Origin: Vulcanisaeta distributa JCM 11216
GTDB lineage: Archaea; Thermoproteota; Thermoprotei; Thermoproteales; Thermocladiaceae
Direction of reading: 5' to 3'
Assembly (NCBI RefSeq): GCF_001315985.1
Contig: NZ_BBBI01000001.1
Span: 248,001 to 312,000, forward strand
Length of the DNA: 64,000 bases
Of the stretch, positions 4,998-27,103 are shown in pieces; position 1 is the first letter of the stretch; every line of letters begins with the position of its first letter. The notes under the pieces were generated by a model. That model was not told the origin of the DNA. It was given only the letters and a program-made list of their open reading frames with translations, and made no database searches. A program made the translations under genes and the position numbers.

Positions 4998-6012
4998 TTA
5001 CCGCTCTGGGTATGGTAACTCCTTCATTAGCGGTATTAAACCAGGTATCAACCACTTCTCCCACATCTCATCAACCCTCCTCTGTATGTACTCAATATCC
5101 TCATCAGTTAGGTGCTTAAACCTAGTCTGTCTCCTTATGTACTCCTTAACGGGCTTCCTCTTAATCTCGCCACTTGCTATTCTGGCGCTCGTGCTCGTCA
5201 GCTTGAACTTACCATACTCTATCTCAAAGAGCGGCCATATGCCCGTTTCGACTGCCAACTTACCTATTTCATGGCTGTACTTAGGTCGAAGCCCCCCCAG
5301 CCCTTCGGGCATGGGTCTAGGGTGTGTATGAATGTTGGTCCACCAATCTCCAGTGCCTTCCTTACCTTATTGTATAGGTCTATTGGGTCTGCCGCTATTG
5401 CCGTGGCCACGTACCTAACCTCCGGGTGCCCAACGGCCATCATTGCGGCCATGTTCTTCTTCCACCTATACTTCATGATCCTTACCTGCTTACCACTTGG
5501 CTGAAGGTCGTAAGTGCTCCGTATGGCGTCATTGTTGTTTCCTGTATATCCGTGTTTGCGCTGGATTCGTTATCATACATGAGTATTAGGAAGTTATACT
5601 TCGTGTGAGTCAGCGCATTGGAGACCTCCGACAGCCCCCCCGCATCTGCGCAGCCTAAGTCACCGCAAATGCCTATCACGTTTATCTTTTCATTGGGCAG
5701 CTTGCCCTTCTCCATAAGTGCCTTCAACGCGGCTGCCGTACCAACCACGGCCGACCCAGTCCCAGACAGTTGAGTGTGTATCCAGGGTAGCGCCCAGGCC
5801 GTTGTGTAATACGTCGTGTTAGCAACGTACATGCACCCAGTCGCTCCAATAACAATTGTGTTAGGGCCAGCCGCCTTGGCAACCCACCTAAGCACCATTG
5901 CCGACTCACAGCCCTGGCAGGTCCTATGACCAGCATCAAAATACTCAGTCTGAGCCATCTGTAGTAGGTCCTTGACTGTTCTGGCGAGCTTGATCGATAC
6001 CGTCACACCCAA
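4998..6012 (-). CDS. 2-oxoacid (possibly oxalate):ferredoxin oxidoreductase beta subunit (frameshifted)
   Basis: Thiamine-diphosphate-binding beta subunit, about 338 residues when rejoined. The N-terminus has the cluster-binding CQGC pair near residues 34-37. Next come GATGC and the TPP/Mg segment GICGDLGCADAGG, followed by YDNESSANTDIQ, the counterpart of YDNEAYMNTGIQ in pyruvate enzymes. The C-terminal CPKGW also matches the family. Two breaks are each repaired by adding one C to a CC, near 5490 (FSPSGKQVRIMKYR) and near 5286 (GFDPKYSHEIGK). GWGGFD probably has an extra Gly. It is the third gene of a gamma-delta/alpha/beta operon. Confidence 0.85.
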
Positions 6013-8980: not shown

Positions 8981-11054
8981 TCAAATAAGCACCCTCTTAA
9001 CGTAACCAGGCTTAGGCATATAAATATCCCCTGACTTAAGTAGAATATTTATTGCCTTATCCACCGCCTGCCTATCAAGGCCTGCGGCCTCGGCCTCCTT
9101 ATACAGGTCCTCGACTCTAACGGCTTACCGCCACTGGACTCCTCGAGTTGAGCCAGTAGGTTCATTATCAATGCCATCCTCTCCTGGGTTGACTTCGGCT
9201 TTCCAGTCATTATTATGTCAATATCGATCTTCCCAGACTCAACATCAATACCAACACTACTCAGGTACTTCATGAAGAGCCTAATGGCCCTATCAGCATC
9301 CTCAGCCTCAACCACGGGGGGGCTAAGCCTCATCTTAGCCTCAGCCTCGGAAAGCCTAATCAAGGCTTCCAACTGCCTAGCCGTTATGGCAATTGGCGAA
9401 TCCGGTTCCCTGGACTTCGCCCTCATCTGCACGTAGAACTGCACAATCCTCTCCCTGGCCTCTGGCGTTAGTACTGGCTTGACGTGCTTACGGGCATAGG
9501 CAATGTACTTCCTAAGTAGGTCAGGCGGTATAATATCGGCAAAACCCTCGGGAACCTCGCCAGCATGCAGTGTCGTTATGTGCTCGGCAATTGCCTTGTC
9601 TCTATCTAAGTTTGGCTCATCCCTAATGATGAATATTAGGTCAAACCTCGATAATAAGGTGACGGGTAGGTCCACGTTCTCAGCCACAGTCCTATTGGGC
9701 AGGTACCTACCGAAGGCCGGATTAGCGGCGGCTAGAACACTACACCTGGCGTTCAGCGTTGCCACAATGCCAGCCTTGGCTATAGATACCGTTTGCTGCT
9801 CAAGGGCTTCATGAATCGCTACCCTGTCCTTGGTATCCATCTTATCAATCTCGTCAATAACAGCCACACCCGTGTCAGCAAGGACCAATGCACCGGCCTC
9901 TAGGTAGAACTCGCCAGTGTCCTTCTCGCGCACGACGGCCGCCGTCAGGCCGGCCGCCGAGCTACCCTTGCCTGTGGTGTATACGGCCCTTGGGGGGGCT
10001 ATCTTGGTTACGAACCTAAGCAACTGCGTCTTAGCCATACCTGGGTCGCCAACGAGCAGTATGTGTATGTCACCCCTAACCCTAATGCCGTCTGGGTAGA
10101 CCTTGGGTACGCCGCCGAAGAGTAGGCAGCTATGGATTCCTTAATGTCCTCCATGCCGTATATGGAGGGCGCTATTGACTTGATTATCCTCTCCCTAACG
10201 TCGGGCATCTTCGAAAGCTCCAGTATCCTCTTCTCATCCTCCGGCGTAATCTCGATCTCCACCAACTCCCTCTGCTGGCTCTCCACGTAATTAACCTCCA
10301 TGAAGCTGGAGACAACGGGTGGCTTACCCTTCCTTAAGTCGGCTAGGTCGAGGTTCATGATACCAACCAGGTAAACCCTATCGCCGGGCTTCACGGTATC
10401 GACCAAGTCATCAAGCAGTATCGCCTCAATACTCCTAGGCAACTGACCCGGTGGCAACTCCTCGGGCTTCTCCTGAACGATTACCTTCTGCCAATCAATG
10501 AACTCACTCCTCTCCTCAACAAACACCATACTATTCAATGCACCACACTTGGGACAACGCTTCGGCGGCTGAACAAAGCCCGTGGTTGGTTGGGGAATCT
10601 CAACCTCATAGCCACACTGCGAGCACCTGAACACGGACCTCCTAAGGTAATGCTTGGGCGGCGTCTGCCTGGTTATTATACCCTCAACCATTATCAACTT
10701 ACCCAAGACCTCACTCCTCAATCTCCTAATGGGCAGAGACTCAGGGAGTCTCCTAAACCTCATGTAGAAATTCCTAACCGACTTAGCCAGCTCTGGATCC
10801 CTCTCAGTTATCGCCTGCCTAACAGCCTCAGAACCGGCCTGAATAACCAACTGAGGTCTCTCAAGAAGCATGTCGGCGAGGTCCTTATTGCTAATTAGTA
10901 GGTCGTGGAAGTCAATCACCAAGGACCTCTTCCTCTGTATGATCATGTTATTAATCTCATCAACATACCTATCACTCGACTCAATAAAGCCCCCCCTAAG
11001 CCCCCCCTGGATCAACGAGTCGAGACTAACCTCGGCGGTTTCCGGCGTAGTCAT
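8981..11054 (-). CDS. mcm: replicative DNA helicase MCM (frameshifted)
   Basis: Archaeal minichromosome maintenance helicase, about 690 residues after repair. Features in order: N-terminal OB/zinc region with CSQCGYE and CPKCGAL; Walker A GDPGMAKT; Walker B with VIDEIDKM; sensor 1 LAAANPAFG; arginine-finger segment LLSRFDLIF; C-terminal winged helix ending SGDIYMPKPGYVKRV. One lost C near 10127 (ESIAALLFGGVPKVYPDG) and one lost base near 9123 break the frame. With the latter repaired the gene ends at 8981 rather than 9049. KIAPPRAVY probably has an extra Pro from a C7/G7 tract. The start overlaps gins23 by 4 bp, so the two are probably translated together. Confidence 0.92.
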
Positions 11055-11563
11055 TGCAGGCCCACCACTGCATTGAGGAATTCCTTGATTAATGGTGCGA
11101 TGGATTTAACGAGCTCCTCCTCCTCAATAGTTAGCTTGTCCAGGAAGTCCCTGGAATCCGCAATGCCGGGGGGGTTGACGGCAATTAACGTGAGTATCTT
11201 CCTAAGCCTCAACTGGGCGAGCTCCCTCAATTGCTGGGCGTAGATCCTAACGCTCTTCTGATCACCACTAACCATGCTGAGCCTAGCCCTGATGTAGAAG
11301 TCCCTGGGCAACTCCCTTAATTCACTGGGAGCCCTATTCTCAAGCCAAACCCTCTTAAGAATCTCCTCACTACCGACCCTATCCTCATCAAGCAGGGAGG
11401 CAACACCGCGCTTAATCAGGACCTCAAGCACGTTGGGTGGTGCATTAATTACGGAACCAGCCTTGGCAGGGGGGGCAATACTGATTATGCCTAGGTCAAC
11501 CCCATCAACGTCCCGCGTCAACACAGCCCTAACGCTAGGCATTAAGTACGAAAAACCCATCAA
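11051..11563 (-). CDS. gins23: GINS complex subunit Gins23
   Basis: A 170-residue protein whose N-terminal ~55 residues look like the small beta B-domain and whose remainder is helical (A-domain). That B-A order is typical of archaeal Gins23 rather than Gins15. The helical part includes RELPRDFYIRARLSM and LRELAQLRLRKI, similar to GINS sequences. Adjacency with mcm and a 4-bp ATGA overlap match the arrangement known from Sulfolobus. GINS joins MCM and Cdc45/RecJ-like protein in the CMG-type replicative helicase. Start could be either of the two leading Met codons. Confidence 0.75.
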   Translation of the reverse strand: MMGFSYLMPSVRAVLTRDVDGVDLGIISIAPPAKAGSVINAPPNVLEVLIKRGVASLLDEDRVGSEEILKRVWLENRAPSELRELPRDFYIRARLSMVSGDQKSVRIYAQQLRELAQLRLRKILTLIAVNPPGIADSRDFLDKLTIEEEELVKSIAPLIKEFLNAVVGLQ

Positions 11564-11628: not shown

Positions 11629-11747
11629 CTAAGATGCAAAATCACGGCAATCCCCATCCATCACATCCTCAATAGCCCTCTCAATCTCCTCAACAGCGAT
11701 AGACCACCAAGCCTAATCACAATCCTCCCAGCAGCGTCCTTAACCAT
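11629..11747 (-). CDS. very small protein of unknown function (frameshifted)
   Basis: Reading the minus strand from the ATG at 11747 gives MVKDAAGRIVIRLGG; restoring one G to a GG then continues SIAVEEIERAIEDVMDGDC and stops at 11629, about 39 residues. The predicted shape is a beta strand followed by an acidic helix. It is not recognised. It lies 55 bp downstream of the 141-residue gene of the ATPase-TOPRIM operon and may be its last member. That the two halves form one sensible charged peptide is the main support. Confidence 0.4.
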
Positions 11748-11802
11748 ACCCTCACTAATGGCATATCAAGCCACTAAATTAAGCATTCACCTAACCCACA
11801 AC

Positions 11803-12228
11803 CTAACCCAACTGCTGGGATTTAGTAACATCCATGTAATCAACCTCAACCACATCCCTAGGATCAACACCAAGAGACTTGCTCAGGCGGTCAAGCACGT
11901 CAAGGGCATAATCAGCACTGGCGCCATAATCGGAGAAGGCAGAGAACTGAAGACCGGAATGCGCGATAATCCTAACCTCAGTCTCTGAGCCACGCTCAAT
12001 AATCAAGGTCATGCAGGCGAGGTAATGACCAATCCTAAAGAAGAACTTCTGCCCAAACGCAACGGCAACCCTGGGGGGGTTAGTACCCAAAACCGTGAAG
12101 TAAATATTAGAGGCTGGGTCATAATCCTTAATCACGTTAATGACAGAATCGAAACTCACAGGGAAGATGGCCCTAACTCCGTGAGCCAAAACCCTATTAC
12201 TCATCAAATCAGCATGAACCAAACGCAT
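11803..12228 (-). CDS. 141-residue protein of unknown function in the ATPase-TOPRIM operon
   Basis: Not assigned to a family with confidence. It has an N-terminal helix-strand region and a run of beta strands (NIYFTVLG, VAVAFGQKFFFRIGHYLACMTLIIERG, EVRIIAHSG). A long C-terminal helix, ADYALDVLDRLSKSLG, follows. This is reminiscent of small START/SRPBCC-like or DUF6054-like proteins, but that is a guess. Its start overlaps the preceding TOPRIM gene by 20 bp, which implies translational coupling. NPPRV probably contains one extra Pro from a seven-base run. Confidence 0.65.
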   Translation of the reverse strand: MRLVHADLMSNRVLAHGVRAIFPVSFDSVINVIKDYDPASNIYFTVLGTNPPRVAVAFGQKFFFRIGHYLACMTLIIERGSETEVRIIAHSGLQFSAFSDYGASADYALDVLDRLSKSLGVDPRDVVEVDYMDVTKSQQLG

Positions 12229-12855
12229 TCTTAAAGATATTTACTACATCGTTATTCCTTGGATCACTAAGGGCCTTCTCAATAGCATTGTGAAGACTTG
12301 AATCATCATTAACATACCCATAATCACGAAGAAAACTCTCCAAAGACGGAACTACAAAGATAAAACGAAAATGAACAATGCCGCCCTTATACCTCAAGGC
12401 ACAGTCATAGTACGTGAAGGACCTCACACGAACTTCCTGCCCACAATCCATGCCCGGTTTATGCTGTGGAAACCTATAATAGTTACTAATGAGATTATCA
12501 ACGTCACGTCTCAATTTATTGAAGGCACCAACCGCATCGTTAGAGTCGGAATCGCGTAAGACCAATACCCTAGTAAATGATTCACGGATAGAACGTAATT
12601 TACTAATTAGGATCATGACATTACGATTAAGCTATCCCTACCACCCTCAACAATGATTGGAACGTAAGGAAGCCGCCTGCTATCTATAATATGCCTAATA
12701 ATGGAGTCCTTATACTCAGGGCCCTGGTCCTTAACCTTGCAATTAACGTTAATCCTTCTGATCAATTCCTTAATAAATTCATAATCGTGCTTACCCTCAC
12801 ATAATATAATCAAGGCGTGGTTAGGGACCCCCCCTGAGGTCTGACTCGAGTTCAT
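12209..12855 (-). CDS. TOPRIM-domain protein, DUF3226-like (probably one gene split by an indel)
   Basis: The first part (from Met at 12855) contains ALIILCEGKHDYEFIKEL, the strand-Glu-helix start of a TOPRIM fold. The second part contains RVLVLRDSDSND, with the metal-binding DxD. As given, the first frame stops at 12613 and the second opens at 12616 through an ATGA. One restored C near 12620 would fuse them into about 216 residues, the usual size of DUF3226-type proteins. TOPRIM domains bind Mg2+ and cut or rejoin nucleic acid. The start lies inside the end of the ATPase gene (35-bp overlap). Either the gene is split by error or it is a genuine two-chain version; I prefer the first. Confidence 0.65.
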
Positions 12856-14115
12856 GTCTCTCGTCATACGCCTCCTCACCGCTCAACTGCTCATAATCAA
12901 TACTACCATCAGGCATTAAGTAAAGCCTAACCAACCTAACCCTATCAAGAACACCACCCTCCTTAGCCGCATTAAGCAGGTAATCAAGGAACTCAAGGGA
13001 CTGCGTGGCCATAACGAACTGAATACGATTAAGGAACCTAGCTCGACAATGTACTTAGTTATTACCTCCATAAAGCCAGGGTGTAAGTGAGTCTCAGGCT
13101 CGTCGATTAAGGCAACGTCAATGCCCATGATAATGAGACTAAGCATCCTAACCAAGGCCTTAAAGCCATCACCCATCAAGTCATAGGGTACGGAGACCCT
13201 ATTACCATTAAAATCAAGAATAACCTGCCCGCCCCCCCTATAATCATAGAAATAATGAACCTCCTTCCTCAATAGGTCAATTAACTCCGTCTGCTTATCG
13301 GGAGATAAATCATCTATTAAAAATGGGTATAACGACGAGTGTTGTATATGTATTGGTTCAACTTTCACCCTTTTACCAGTAATGATTATCTGACTTTCCG
13401 AAATAACTTTTCTTAACTGAATATTTACTAATCTCTTGGCTTCGAATGAATTTAATCCTAGCCCTTTCAACTCATTAATTATATTCTCACTAACTCCTAC
13501 TTCACTTAAGGGCGGTAATGCAACATTAAGCAGCTCACCATCAACATACGTACTTATGAAAATAGCATCCATTAACAGATCACTTACATGATTACTAAAT
13601 ACGGAAATCACACCGTCAACAAATTCCTTAATTGCATCAGGAAGATTCTTAACATCTTTACGTTCATGGACTAAGCGATCCCGCAATCCTCTACGAAACG
13701 CTTCCATAAGAATTTCTTGAGATCTCGGCGTTAACTCGGTGATCGATTTCACTACTTCTTGCATCACGTTATCGCGGAGATCACCAAGCCCATTGATGCC
13801 CTTGGTCACCCTCACCTCAATACTATGCTTCACGCCTTGGTCAACCACATCGCCAGAAATAATGGCAAGGCCCTTACTACTCCTTAAATTAATTAAGTAC
13901 CTACTCTTTGACTTAAGGTTTGAGAGCACATCGATGTTGGATGTGGCGACTTTAAAGTCATTAATTGATGAGAGGAGTAACTCGATGGCTTCCAGTGCCG
14001 TGCTCTTACCCGTATTATTCCTGCCAACGAATATCGTAATATCGCCAAGCTCAATATCAAGCCTGGTGAAGGGACCGTAATCCTCAAGCAGCAGCTGCCT
14101 CAATACAGTAACCAC
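12821..14115 (-). CDS. AAA/ABC-type ATPase of the OLD/RecF-like (AAA_15/AAA_21) group (frameshifted)
   Basis: About 431 residues. The N-terminus LEDYGPFTRLDIELGDITIFVGRNNTGKS holds a RecF/SMC-like Walker A (GRNNTGKST, residues 32-40). A long helical insertion follows. Near the C-terminus are a signature-like YDLMGDGFKAL, Walker B ALIDEPETHLHPG, and the final strand with switch residue FVMATQS. The break near 13037 is repaired by one G. This class of ATPase is found with TOPRIM nucleases in OLD, Gabija and PARIS anti-phage systems; here the TOPRIM is on the next, overlapping gene. DLRGGP at the end probably carries one extra Gly. Confidence 0.8.
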
Positions 14116-14136
14116 AAAGCAATTATAATAACTCAG

Positions 14137-14643
14137 TTAAAATGCCTTTTGAGGAGTTAAGTCACGACATACTCGCCCCCTCATCGTCGATCTCGACCAC
14201 CACGTACTGAGAAGGGTTGTGACAAAGGCGTAGGCGGGCATTAAAGCCGCTATCATTATTGGTACGTAAGTAGCCGTGTAAAGGACTATTAAATCATTAG
14301 GCGTTGGCGTGGTGGTTATTAAGTGGGGGGGTGGAAAACCTAGAACTACGTATAAGTAAGCAACTTCAAAAATGGGCGTGATTAGACATATGGCTAGATA
14401 AATCAGGGATTGAAGAAGAGCTCTCCTAAACCCATATTTAAACTCCACAATATCGTCTCTAAGGAACTTAGCCACAAGGACAAAACCAATTATTGAAATA
14501 GCCACTTGGTAGAGCATTGACAGTGAAAAACCCTTAACTACTACGGGCGGAACAATGAAAACCCAGGCAAATGGATTAAGAAAAACGGCAACACCAAGCC
14601 CGTACAATAAGCGGATATAATTTTGAGACATACTTATCACCAT
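14137..14643 (-). CDS. four-helix membrane protein of unknown function
   Basis: A 168-residue protein with about four hydrophobic segments (near residues 10-35, 42-60, 75-105 and 122-150). Its C-terminal tail is basic (WWSRSTMRGRVCRDL). It has no recognised family. Its stop lies 21 bp upstream of the ATPase start on the same strand, so it may be the first gene of the ATPase-TOPRIM operon. Met5 (MSQNYIRLLYG) is an alternative start. GFPPPHL includes a C7/G7 tract. Confidence 0.6.
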   Translation of the reverse strand: MVISMSQNYIRLLYGLGVAVFLNPFAWVFIVPPVVVKGFSLSMLYQVAISIIGFVLVAKFLRDDIVEFKYGFRRALLQSLIYLAICLITPIFEVAYLYVVLGFPPPHLITTTPTPNDLIVLYTATYVPIMIAALMPAYAFVTTLLSTWWSRSTMRGRVCRDLTPQKAF

Positions 14644-18605: not shown

Positions 18606-20138
18606 CTACTGTGGCTTCGCGATACTCAGGGCGTTGATGAGTAGTTCCCTATCCTCACCGTTGCATACGATCACCGTACCCAACCACCTTACGAACCCTA
18701 ACACCAAGCCCAACAAGCTCATCCCTAAGCCTCCTGGCCTCCCCCCCAGAATCACCCAATGAAATCAATACGCAGGACTCGGTATACTCGTAGCCCCCCC
18801 TCCCATTACGGCCCTGGACGCGTGCACATGCCACCTCCCGACCCTGTACCTCCTAAGCACACCAACCACATCATCAATGCTCGGCATCCTCCTCGGCTCA
18901 CCATAAAACCTCTCATAAACACCGAGCATCCTAAGAATGCGACTAGTGTCCTCAATGGGCACATAAATCTCGAACTCACCATCACGCTATTAACACTGAC
19001 GTTGAACCCAATAGCCCTCAGATCATTGGCTATGGCCGTTGCTAACCCCCCCTCATCACTGGTGGACTTAGCCAAATACCAACCACGCCCTATGTTGTGC
19101 TTCCTCAATATTAATTCATGACCAAGCACGTTAATGACTGGGTACTTGGCGTAGGTCAGGCAGGGCGTCGAGTACCTAACGGCATCCACCAACTTAACAA
19201 CCCTATCAGTAAGCCCGTACGTAGCCACGAACCAGCCAAACCAACGATGTCACCAATCACCAACGCCTTAACCGGGCAAAGGATGTAATGCTCACTACCC
19301 CTAGCCGAGGAACCACCAAAGAACCCACCAGAACAACCATAAAGCCCACACAGGAACTCATCCATAAACCTCCTAACAGGCTCATCAACAACAAAGGAAA
19401 AACCAATGTCAAAGGAGCCACGACCAACATGACCAAGAACACCATCACCCAAAAACCAACCAAGCAACGAAGCCCTACCAATAAAACCATTAACCGCATA
19501 ATAAACAAACCTGATCTGCTTCTTCACTTTAACACTGTTCCAGTTGTTTATGGCGTTTCTGAGCCAGGGGGTTAGGTGGTTGGGTATCTTGGGATTATTG
19601 AGGAGATCTTGGGCTTTGATGTTATTAACCCTGAATATGTCTAGGTCGTGCTTATTCGTAATAACTACGTGGTATGAGACGGATAGCCCCCCCTCTTTCC
19701 CTCTGCCGCTGTTATGTAGAAGCGCATTGTCAATTTCTTCTCACGTAGGTAATTCCCCCCCACCGCGAATATAAATGACGATATTAAGTGCGGATCTGGC
19801 GTTGATGTTGATGTTATATTGCCACTTAAGTACACGTCACTTATTGCGAGCCCTGCTAAGACCTGCCTTAAGGCATCATGGTCAAGATTCACCTCATCTA
19901 ACTCAATATTTAATTTGAACGATTCACTTAACTCGTGCATCCTAGTGCCTAATCCTGAATTTCGCACATTCTTAACGCTATTGCGCTTTATTTCATCCCA
20001 ATTATTTACTATCTCATTGCTTAAGTTCGTCAGCAAGTTGTTGAGCTCTGACAACCTAATCTCTGAGCCATGTAGGTCCTTCGTTAGGTCCCGAATTGTG
20101 GCCATAGTTGATGCCCTTAACCACGGGTATTTAAGCAT
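18606..20138 (-). CDS. PaRep2b-like / LAGLIDADG-like protein (several frameshifts)
   Basis: Rejoined it is about 510 residues, read through breaks near 19686 (seven-base run), 19222, 18985 and 18660. The N-terminal part is helical (RLSELNNLLTNLSNEIVNNW) and beta-rich. The middle has LLGWFLGDGVLGHV, which resembles the core LAGLIDADG helix, followed by a SEHYILCP turn. A second half has GRGWYLAKSTSDEGGLATAIANDL and GFNVSVNS, the compact alpha/beta repeat seen in PaRep2b proteins of Pyrobaculum and relatives. The C-terminus, repaired, reads VVGTVIVCNGEDRELLINAL and stops at 18606. A role is unknown; PaRep2b genes are multicopy in Thermoproteales. Confidence 0.45.
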
Positions 20139-26091: not shown

Positions 26092-26670
26092 ATGAATGCA
26101 TGCAGTGAGCAATGCCTTAAGGTGTTGAGTGTTGTTAGGGATTTAATTATTAATAACTATTAAGGATTTTATTCGCTTTGCCGTGCTTTTTGGTTCGTTG
26201 GTTTATGGCGTGTTTGGCCCCCCCTTAGTGATGTGGATGTTGCCGTATTGTTTAGGGATGGTGTTGATATTATTGATGTGTTACCAACGTTCATTAGTGA
26301 CCTTGCCCTGGCTTTGGGCTTTCCTGAGGGTAGGATTGACGTTGCCGTGCTTAATGACCCGTTACTGCCCTTTGAGGTTAGGTTTAGGGCTTTGACTCAG
26401 GGCGTGCCCGTTTACATTGGTGATCGTGGGGGGGTATTCATTAGGGAGGTTGTTAGGGCAATTAGTCTTTATGGTGATTACCAAGTGTTTTTACGGGTTA
26501 ATGGATTTAATGAGTTGATTAGGAGGAGGTTGGTGAGTTGCGTGGGTCGATTAGGTGATTTATTAGCGGTTATTAAGAGGAATGTCGATGAGGTCGACAC
26601 CCTGGTCTCGTACCGGAATAACGCATTTAGTAGGTACCATAACCGTGCAGTAATACTCAACGAATGTTAA
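26092..26670 (+). CDS. MNT-type nucleotidyltransferase (frameshifted)
   Basis: Minimal nucleotidyltransferase fold: FAVLFGSLVYGVFGPLSDVDVAVLF gives GS then D-x-D after repairing a seven-base C run near 26222. The ATG at 26092 gives MNACSEQCLKVLSVV, and a second break near 26160 must be repaired. The total is about 190 residues. MNT proteins paired with HEPN proteins act as antitoxins, some by AMPylating the partner; the HEPN gene lies convergent 25 bp away. The C-terminal half is helical (RLGDLLAVIKRNVDEVDTLV). Confidence 0.72.
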
Positions 26671-26695
26671 CGAGACCAACACGATGATCATAATG

Positions 26696-27103
26696 TTAAT
26701 GCCAAGGCAATGAATTACGCATCGATGCTATTACCCACGGCGTAATCATAAAGCTAAGGGCAATCCTCAATAAGTCCCTGTAAAGGGCCTCAGCCAGTAT
26801 TTCACGGAGGGCATCAATGGAGACCTGCGAATAGTTATGCACTAGGACGTTCCTGAAGCCAATCATCCTCCTAAAGACCTTTGAATCATCACCACTTATA
26901 ACACCGGCCTGGCTCAGGTAAATGGGTACCTCTGAGTACGTAGATGGCGCCTTAAGGCCCTTCTCAACCATTATGTGCGAGCCCATGTCAATTAACGCCT
27001 GTATTGCAACCTGAAGCATGTGCAGTATAGCGTTCAGTAGCACATAATCACTGATTAACTCATTAACGCCGTACCTATCACGCTTACCGACTTTTGCGTT
27101 CAT
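26696..27103 (-). CDS. HEPN-domain (HepT-like) toxin candidate
   Basis: 135 residues, helical. The diagnostic HEPN motif R-x4-H is present as FRNVLVHNY near residues 87-95, the form used by HepT-type ribonucleases. Its neighbour is an MNT nucleotidyltransferase, the usual antitoxin partner, though here arranged tail to tail rather than in one operon. Two adjacent 12-bp palindromes stand 16-39 bp upstream of the ATG at 27103. No frame break. Confidence 0.72.
   Translation of the reverse strand: MNAKVGKRDRYGVNELISDYVLLNAILHMLQVAIQALIDMGSHIMVEKGLKAPSTYSEVPIYLSQAGVISGDDSKVFRRMIGFRNVLVHNYSQVSIDALREILAEALYRDLLRIALSFMITPWVIASMRNSLPWH

Follow-up and report, generated by a model that had tools for sequence, protein, structure and literature searches.

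In OLD-type systems, the ATPase controls a TOPRIM nuclease. PARIS has the ATPase and the TOPRIM activity on two proteins and requires both for defence, and the system is recognised by an ATPase matching AAA_15 (at least 32 bits) or AAA_21 (at least 27 bits) together with a DUF4435 gene (PMC9122126). In the published OLD tree, split enzymes of this type (class 4) occur in bacteria only, and many OLD clades are uncharacterised (PMC12796447). The sole characterised archaeal OLD protein, Cran1 of Saccharolobus, is an essential ATPase-nickase whose gene shares a putative operon with that of a membrane protein; it is a cell-cycle protein and apparently does not serve in defence (PMC12796447).

The locus considered here lies in the window, i.e., the whole stretch of 64,000 nucleotides that was analysed, which belongs to a Vulcanisaeta genome (G000). 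The original prediction read five tightly packed leftward genes as a candidate new defence-like operon. The open reading frames are indeed located there, but they do not form an intact operon, as the ATPase and TOPRIM genes are frameshifted and no single open frame in the window encodes the 39-residue peptide (11747-11629). The five-gene novelty does not hold, and the real part of the prediction is a defence-like split OLD pair that lies closest to the candidate system PDC-M38. With a probability of roughly 0.6, this pair is a two-gene split OLD-family module, consisting of an ABC ATPase and a separate TOPRIM nuclease, which forms an accessory cassette with OLD/PARIS-like antiviral action. The pair probably represents a diverged version of an already known type of defence module, not a new system of five genes. 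The features of the locus are as follows.

11051..11563, minus strand: GINS subunit (Pfam Sld5, 32 bits), a conserved anchor beside the variable locus, context only
11629..11747, minus strand: decayed C-terminal remnant of a MazE/AbrB-type (VapB) antitoxin, the predicted 39-residue peptide, outside the pair
11803..12228, minus strand: small alpha/beta protein of the P138 family, 141 aa here and 138 aa in V. distributa, sharing 20 bp with the TOPRIM gene, an optional neighbour
12209..12867, minus strand: putative TOPRIM-type nuclease, a separate gene with its ATG at 12867 or 12855, frameshifted near 12630
12821..14115, minus strand: OLD-type ABC ATPase, frameshifted near 13045, intact form 424 aa in V. 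distributa
14137..14643, minus strand: four-helix membrane protein, about 164 aa from the ATG at 14631, an optional neighbour
18624..20012, minus strand: LAGLIDADG-like gene in frameshifted pieces, 37-55% identical by tblastn to L013:101-1687, context only

Coding frames are often broken across the window. A 1-base indel breaks the ATPase gene and a second indel the TOPRIM gene, and the frame of the neighbouring MCM gene is split in the same manner. Since MCM is essential and the host genome has a completeness score of 67.75% at 2.42 Mb, these frameshifts are most likely assembly errors. The window also contains 147 G/C runs of 6-8 bases, 133 of which are exactly 7 bases long; where these align with V. 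distributa (G007), the run there is mostly 4 bases long. The extra 3 bases per run keep the frame, even inside MCM and GINS. Such 7-base runs occur throughout the window (e.g., 10600-11500) and likewise in L015 of G008; they are probably an assembly artefact, and the residues that they add, such as those that bring P138 from 138 to 141 aa, are probably artefactual as well. Because of the broken frames, gene models were taken from the V. distributa copies (G007, L013), which are intact and show the order ATPase, overlapping TOPRIM gene (at most 225 aa), P138, GINS and MCM. GINS was present in 20 of the 20 high-quality relatives searched.

The 399-aa ATPase reading frame of the window ends in a wrong-frame tail, and tblastn with the intact protein recovered residues 1-352 and 351-423 in two frames, the latter at 13048-12830. 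The protein carries the Walker A motif GRNNTGKST and the Walker B region LIDEPE.HLHPG, followed by ATQSLEFLD. The alignment columns GRNNTG, GDG and EPE.H.HPG are invariant, in agreement with the Walker A/B criterion of the OLD superfamily. The intact ATPase scores above the Pfam cut-offs against both AAA_21 (74.5 bits) and AAA_15 (54 bits), and matches the OLD-type PDB proteins PtuA, an OLD-family endonuclease, AriA and GajA. Among non-generic models, it is closest to PDC-M38A of PADLOC (67-102 bits in five lineages, aligned to the profile end), with 67 bits (E 4.6e-19) for V. distributa and 92 bits over the full length for G379; PDC-M38A is also the model that best describes the ATPases of G048 and G040. 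In G010, the Walker A Lys is changed to Arg and the TOPRIM protein is cut short, and this copy may therefore be inactive.

The second protein is likely a TOPRIM protein, as judged from motifs, weak profile matches and the placement of the key residues in a structural model; the call is likely rather than proven, as the fold searches gave no significant match. The Glu in LCEGKHDYEF and the DxD in LRDSDSND lie in motifs conserved in the G007, G010, G026 and G379 copies, and both are invariant in full-length copies. Weak similarity was found to PDC-M38B (E 2.2e-5 in G007 and 0.0023 in G379; the copies of G026 and G048 did not match in the profile comparison) and to the retron Ec67 RT/endonuclease fusion (E 0.0026). 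The match to DUF3226 (E 3.3e-4 and 20.9 bits in G007, 19.2 bits in G379) stays below the Pfam cut-off of 27 bits. In the predicted model (pLDDT 84), the Glu sits just after the first strand and the DxD just after the strand at 98-105. This placement, with the Glu after the first strand and the DxD after a later one, is that of TOPRIM folds. No significant match emerged when the model was compared with the folds of PDB and BFVD, or when PDB sequences were searched with a profile of the protein.

Depending on the start, the TOPRIM and ATPase genes overlap by 35-47 bp; the predicted overlaps of 35 bp here (12855-12821) and of 20 bp with P138 (12228-12209) are as described. In V. distributa, G010 and the window (ATG 12867), an in-frame ATG near the end of the ATPase gene comes after a Shine-Dalgarno-like GGTGAGGAGG, and the G379 pair likewise overlaps, by 20 bp. 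This layout fits, as far as sequence can tell, two genes coupled in translation and not a fused gene. The single 608-aa ORF formed by ATPase and TOPRIM in G004 occurs in an indel-rich genome. This ORF and the missing start codon of the TOPRIM frame in G026 prompted the idea of programmed frameshifting between the two genes, which was set aside given that the relative frame varies (+1 in G007, 0 in G004, -1 in G026), that G004 is indel-rich and that G007, G010 and the window have the ATG preceded by a Shine-Dalgarno-like motif. In the Thermoprotei MAG G026 (L063:6780-6910), the TOPRIM gene is read in frame -1 relative to the ATPase, next to a G-run, and contains no ATG, GTG or TTG before the LCEG motif; this missing start may reflect an indel, an unusual start or frameshifting.

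The pair is present in 5 of 12 Vulcanisaeta genomes and, as closely related copies, in two remote lineages (G026 and G379). In a search of 398 genomes of the phylum, Vulcanisaeta, G026 and G379 alone had ATPase profile scores above about 200 bits, and the TOPRIM profile matched in 11 genomes from 6 of 163 genera. Apart from weak matches, a scan of genome contigs returned only the B15_G16 MAG and the copies in Vulcanisaeta, and no relatives were found in viral contigs and plasmids. The same ATPase/TOPRIM gene order recurs in other families, by which the pairing is more than chance. Distantly related pairs (ATPase plus TOPRIM/DUF3226-like) stand side by side in G048, G040 and G041. The surroundings in G379 include a second AAA_21 ATPase and HEPN-MNT genes, i.e., defence-type company. 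In four Vulcanisaeta genomes (G000, G002, G004 and G007), ATPase-TOPRIM-P138 lies upstream of GINS. In G010, the membrane gene, the ATPase and a truncated TOPRIM gene stand beside a conserved HerA-like gene. Decayed states were found in G003, which keeps P138 and a TOPRIM remnant that has lost the DxD (SSGSDD), in G001, with an ATPase fragment and a P138 tail beside HerA, and in the sister genus (G018), with a TOPRIM remnant beside a LAGLIDADG-like gene. G008 has P138 only, and the GINS locus of G011 has none of the ATPase, TOPRIM, P138 and membrane genes.

It is doubtful that the pair represents a separate archaeal class of split OLD systems apart from PARIS, in which the ATPase and a TOPRIM nuclease lacking DUF4435 would provide antiviral immunity, while P138 and the membrane protein specific to Vulcanisaeta would be added as regulators or effectors. 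It is unlikely, too, that the pair belongs to a larger system whose effector or regulator is the membrane protein, P138 or both. The membrane gene, whose homologues begin MxQNY (the ATG at 14631 in the window) and whose product has four TM segments by hydropathy in the window and in G010, does occur almost only beside the pair (4 genomes). However, while intact in G010, it is a frameshift-broken pseudogene in the single-contig V. distributa genome despite the intact pair there, and no match was found in G004. P138 similarly follows the pair in the four genomes named above, shares 20-26 bp with the TOPRIM gene in V. distributa and in the window, and is under purifying selection (dN/dS 0.13-0.22), but it occurs without the pair in G008, in the sister genus (P138 genes of G021) and among unrelated genes in four genomes outside the family, whereas G010, G026 and G379 have the pair without an adjacent P138. 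Thus, the small-gene co-occurrence expected from the original prediction breaks down outside Vulcanisaeta, and P138 is probably an optional neighbour rather than a core part.

Relatives of P138 were found in 9 of 163 genera. Its AF2 model (pLDDT 84) gave weak helix-grip/SRPBCC-like matches in structure searches (E about 1e-3), and the V. distributa protein matched no Pfam model over cut-off and no NCBIfam, PHROGs or PADLOC model. P138 is a small Thermoproteota family with the conserved C-terminus Y-[ML]-D-x-[ST]-[KR]-S (L123, L124, L125 and L126, genes near position 5000). As for the 39-residue peptide, tblastn of the intact antitoxin of G004 (L017:9227-9466; MazE_antitoxin 51 bits, with a PIN-domain gene) recovered only the C-terminal 19 residues, at 11700-11644 (E = 0.008), and the N-terminal AbrB-type domain was not found intact in the window. 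Antitoxin copies or remnants also precede GINS in G002, G003, G004, G007, G008 and G010, decayed in G003, G007, G008 and G010, although the G010 pair sits elsewhere. By its position across these genomes, the remnant is tied to GINS and not to the ATPase-TOPRIM pair. The comparative loci thus rule out the five-gene operon: V. distributa has only a pseudogene of the membrane protein and G004 lacks the gene, P138 stands alone elsewhere, and the peptide is a VapB-type remnant.

Housekeeping in DNA repair or the cell cycle, in the manner of Cran1 and linked to the GINS-MCM replication genes, was offered as an alternative by the original prediction and is quite improbable. Cran1 shows that an archaeal OLD protein with a membrane-protein neighbour can be cellular (PMC12796447), and the pair adjoins GINS-MCM in several species. 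However, about half of the Vulcanisaeta genomes and almost the whole order lack the pair or retain it in decayed form, a patchy distribution that contradicts a universally conserved repair function, and in G010 the pair lies far from GINS (2.22 Mb vs. 0.49 Mb on the contig). Moreover, the V. distributa and G010 ATPase genes, at different chromosomal sites, are 97.9% identical in nucleotides with a dS of only 0.046, compared with dS values of 0.60 for GINS and 0.97 for MCM between the same genomes, GINS and MCM being 86–87% identical. This difference in dS suggests lateral movement, most likely of the module between the V. distributa and G010 lineages after their split, whereas Cran1 is inherited vertically and conserved. 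The ATPase (dN/dS 0.17-0.31) and TOPRIM (0.30-0.35) genes are, like P138, under purifying selection, yet faster evolving than MCM and GINS (0.025-0.08). The comparison of genomes fits an accessory, laterally moving module rather than core repair. Of the original prediction, the OLD/RecF-like ATPase and its overlapping but separate TOPRIM gene stand, and the patchy distribution and lateral movement of the pair are defence-like.

The LAGLIDADG-like gene is a possible agent of this mobility. In G007, its match to Pfam LAGLIDADG_3 falls just under the cut-off. The gene occurs about once per genome, with further copies at L014:4217-5722 and L062:4951-6596; it is near the variable locus in most Vulcanisaeta and in the sister-genus relative, and is missing from several genomes with an empty locus. 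A selfish cassette spread by this gene, in which the ATPase and TOPRIM protein would serve the element and not the host, is very unlikely: the gene does accompany the pair or a TOPRIM remnant in Vulcanisaeta genomes, usually within about 10 kb, but it lies about 44 kb off in G004, is only a fragment in G010, is missing in G001, is not among the relatives' matches in G026 and is present without the pair in G008. Elsewhere in the window (26233-27076), an MNT nucleotidyltransferase and HEPN-like pair is found in pieces on both strands, which suggests internal rearrangement; this pair is also near the same locus in G003 and G010.

For the two-gene antiviral module, the most likely function, by analogy with the OLD family, is ATPase-gated nuclease immunity. 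The ATPase and the TOPRIM protein would be translated from the overlapping genes at the variable locus upstream of GINS-MCM, and the ATPase would act as a nucleotide-binding scaffold that restrains the putative nuclease. Upon sensing an invader-associated signal, the ATPase would release the nuclease to cleave nucleic acid, by which the invader or the infected cell would be stopped. Complex formation, the nuclease activity of the second protein, the trigger, the target and the antiviral role are all inferred from this analogy. With a mobile split ATPase-TOPRIM pair that is intact in some sister species of hyperthermophilic archaea and decayed in others, it could be tested directly whether OLD-type immunity operates in Thermoproteales.

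Among known systems, PARIS (class 4 OLD, AriA + AriB), for which an anti-restriction protein is the trigger, shares with this locus an ABC ATPase and a TOPRIM protein on separate adjacent genes, and the ATPase scores exceed both AriA thresholds. The separate TOPRIM gene, which had been presented as new, is thus already the arrangement of PARIS (PMC10568477) and also that of PDC-M38. However, AriB is a DUF4435 protein, and no DUF4435 match was found at E<=1 in the TOPRIM partner, nor any in the genomes of 41 relatives; PARIS membership was rejected on the absence of this defining gene. The PADLOC AriA matches do not argue for PARIS, because their lengths, alignment ends and scores are nearly the same as those of the generic Pfam AAA_21 and AAA_15 models. 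The class 1-3 OLD nucleases, GajA and the retron OLD effectors have the same ATPase superfamily with an associated TOPRIM domain, but in a single chain, and reading of the neighbouring ORFs by eye recognised no GajB helicase or reverse transcriptase. Cran1 (class 5 OLD, Sulfolobales) is similar as an archaeal OLD ATPase beside a membrane protein gene; compared by description, it is fused, vertically conserved and essential, whereas the pair here is split, patchy and mobile. A literature search found no paper naming PDC-M38, and the TOPRIM partner resembles PDC-M38B weakly, the G026 and G048 copies not at all. By sequence comparison, PDC-M38 (PADLOC) is nevertheless the closest named candidate, since it likewise combines an ATPase (about 370 aa in most models) with a separate TOPRIM-type protein of about 220-290 aa.
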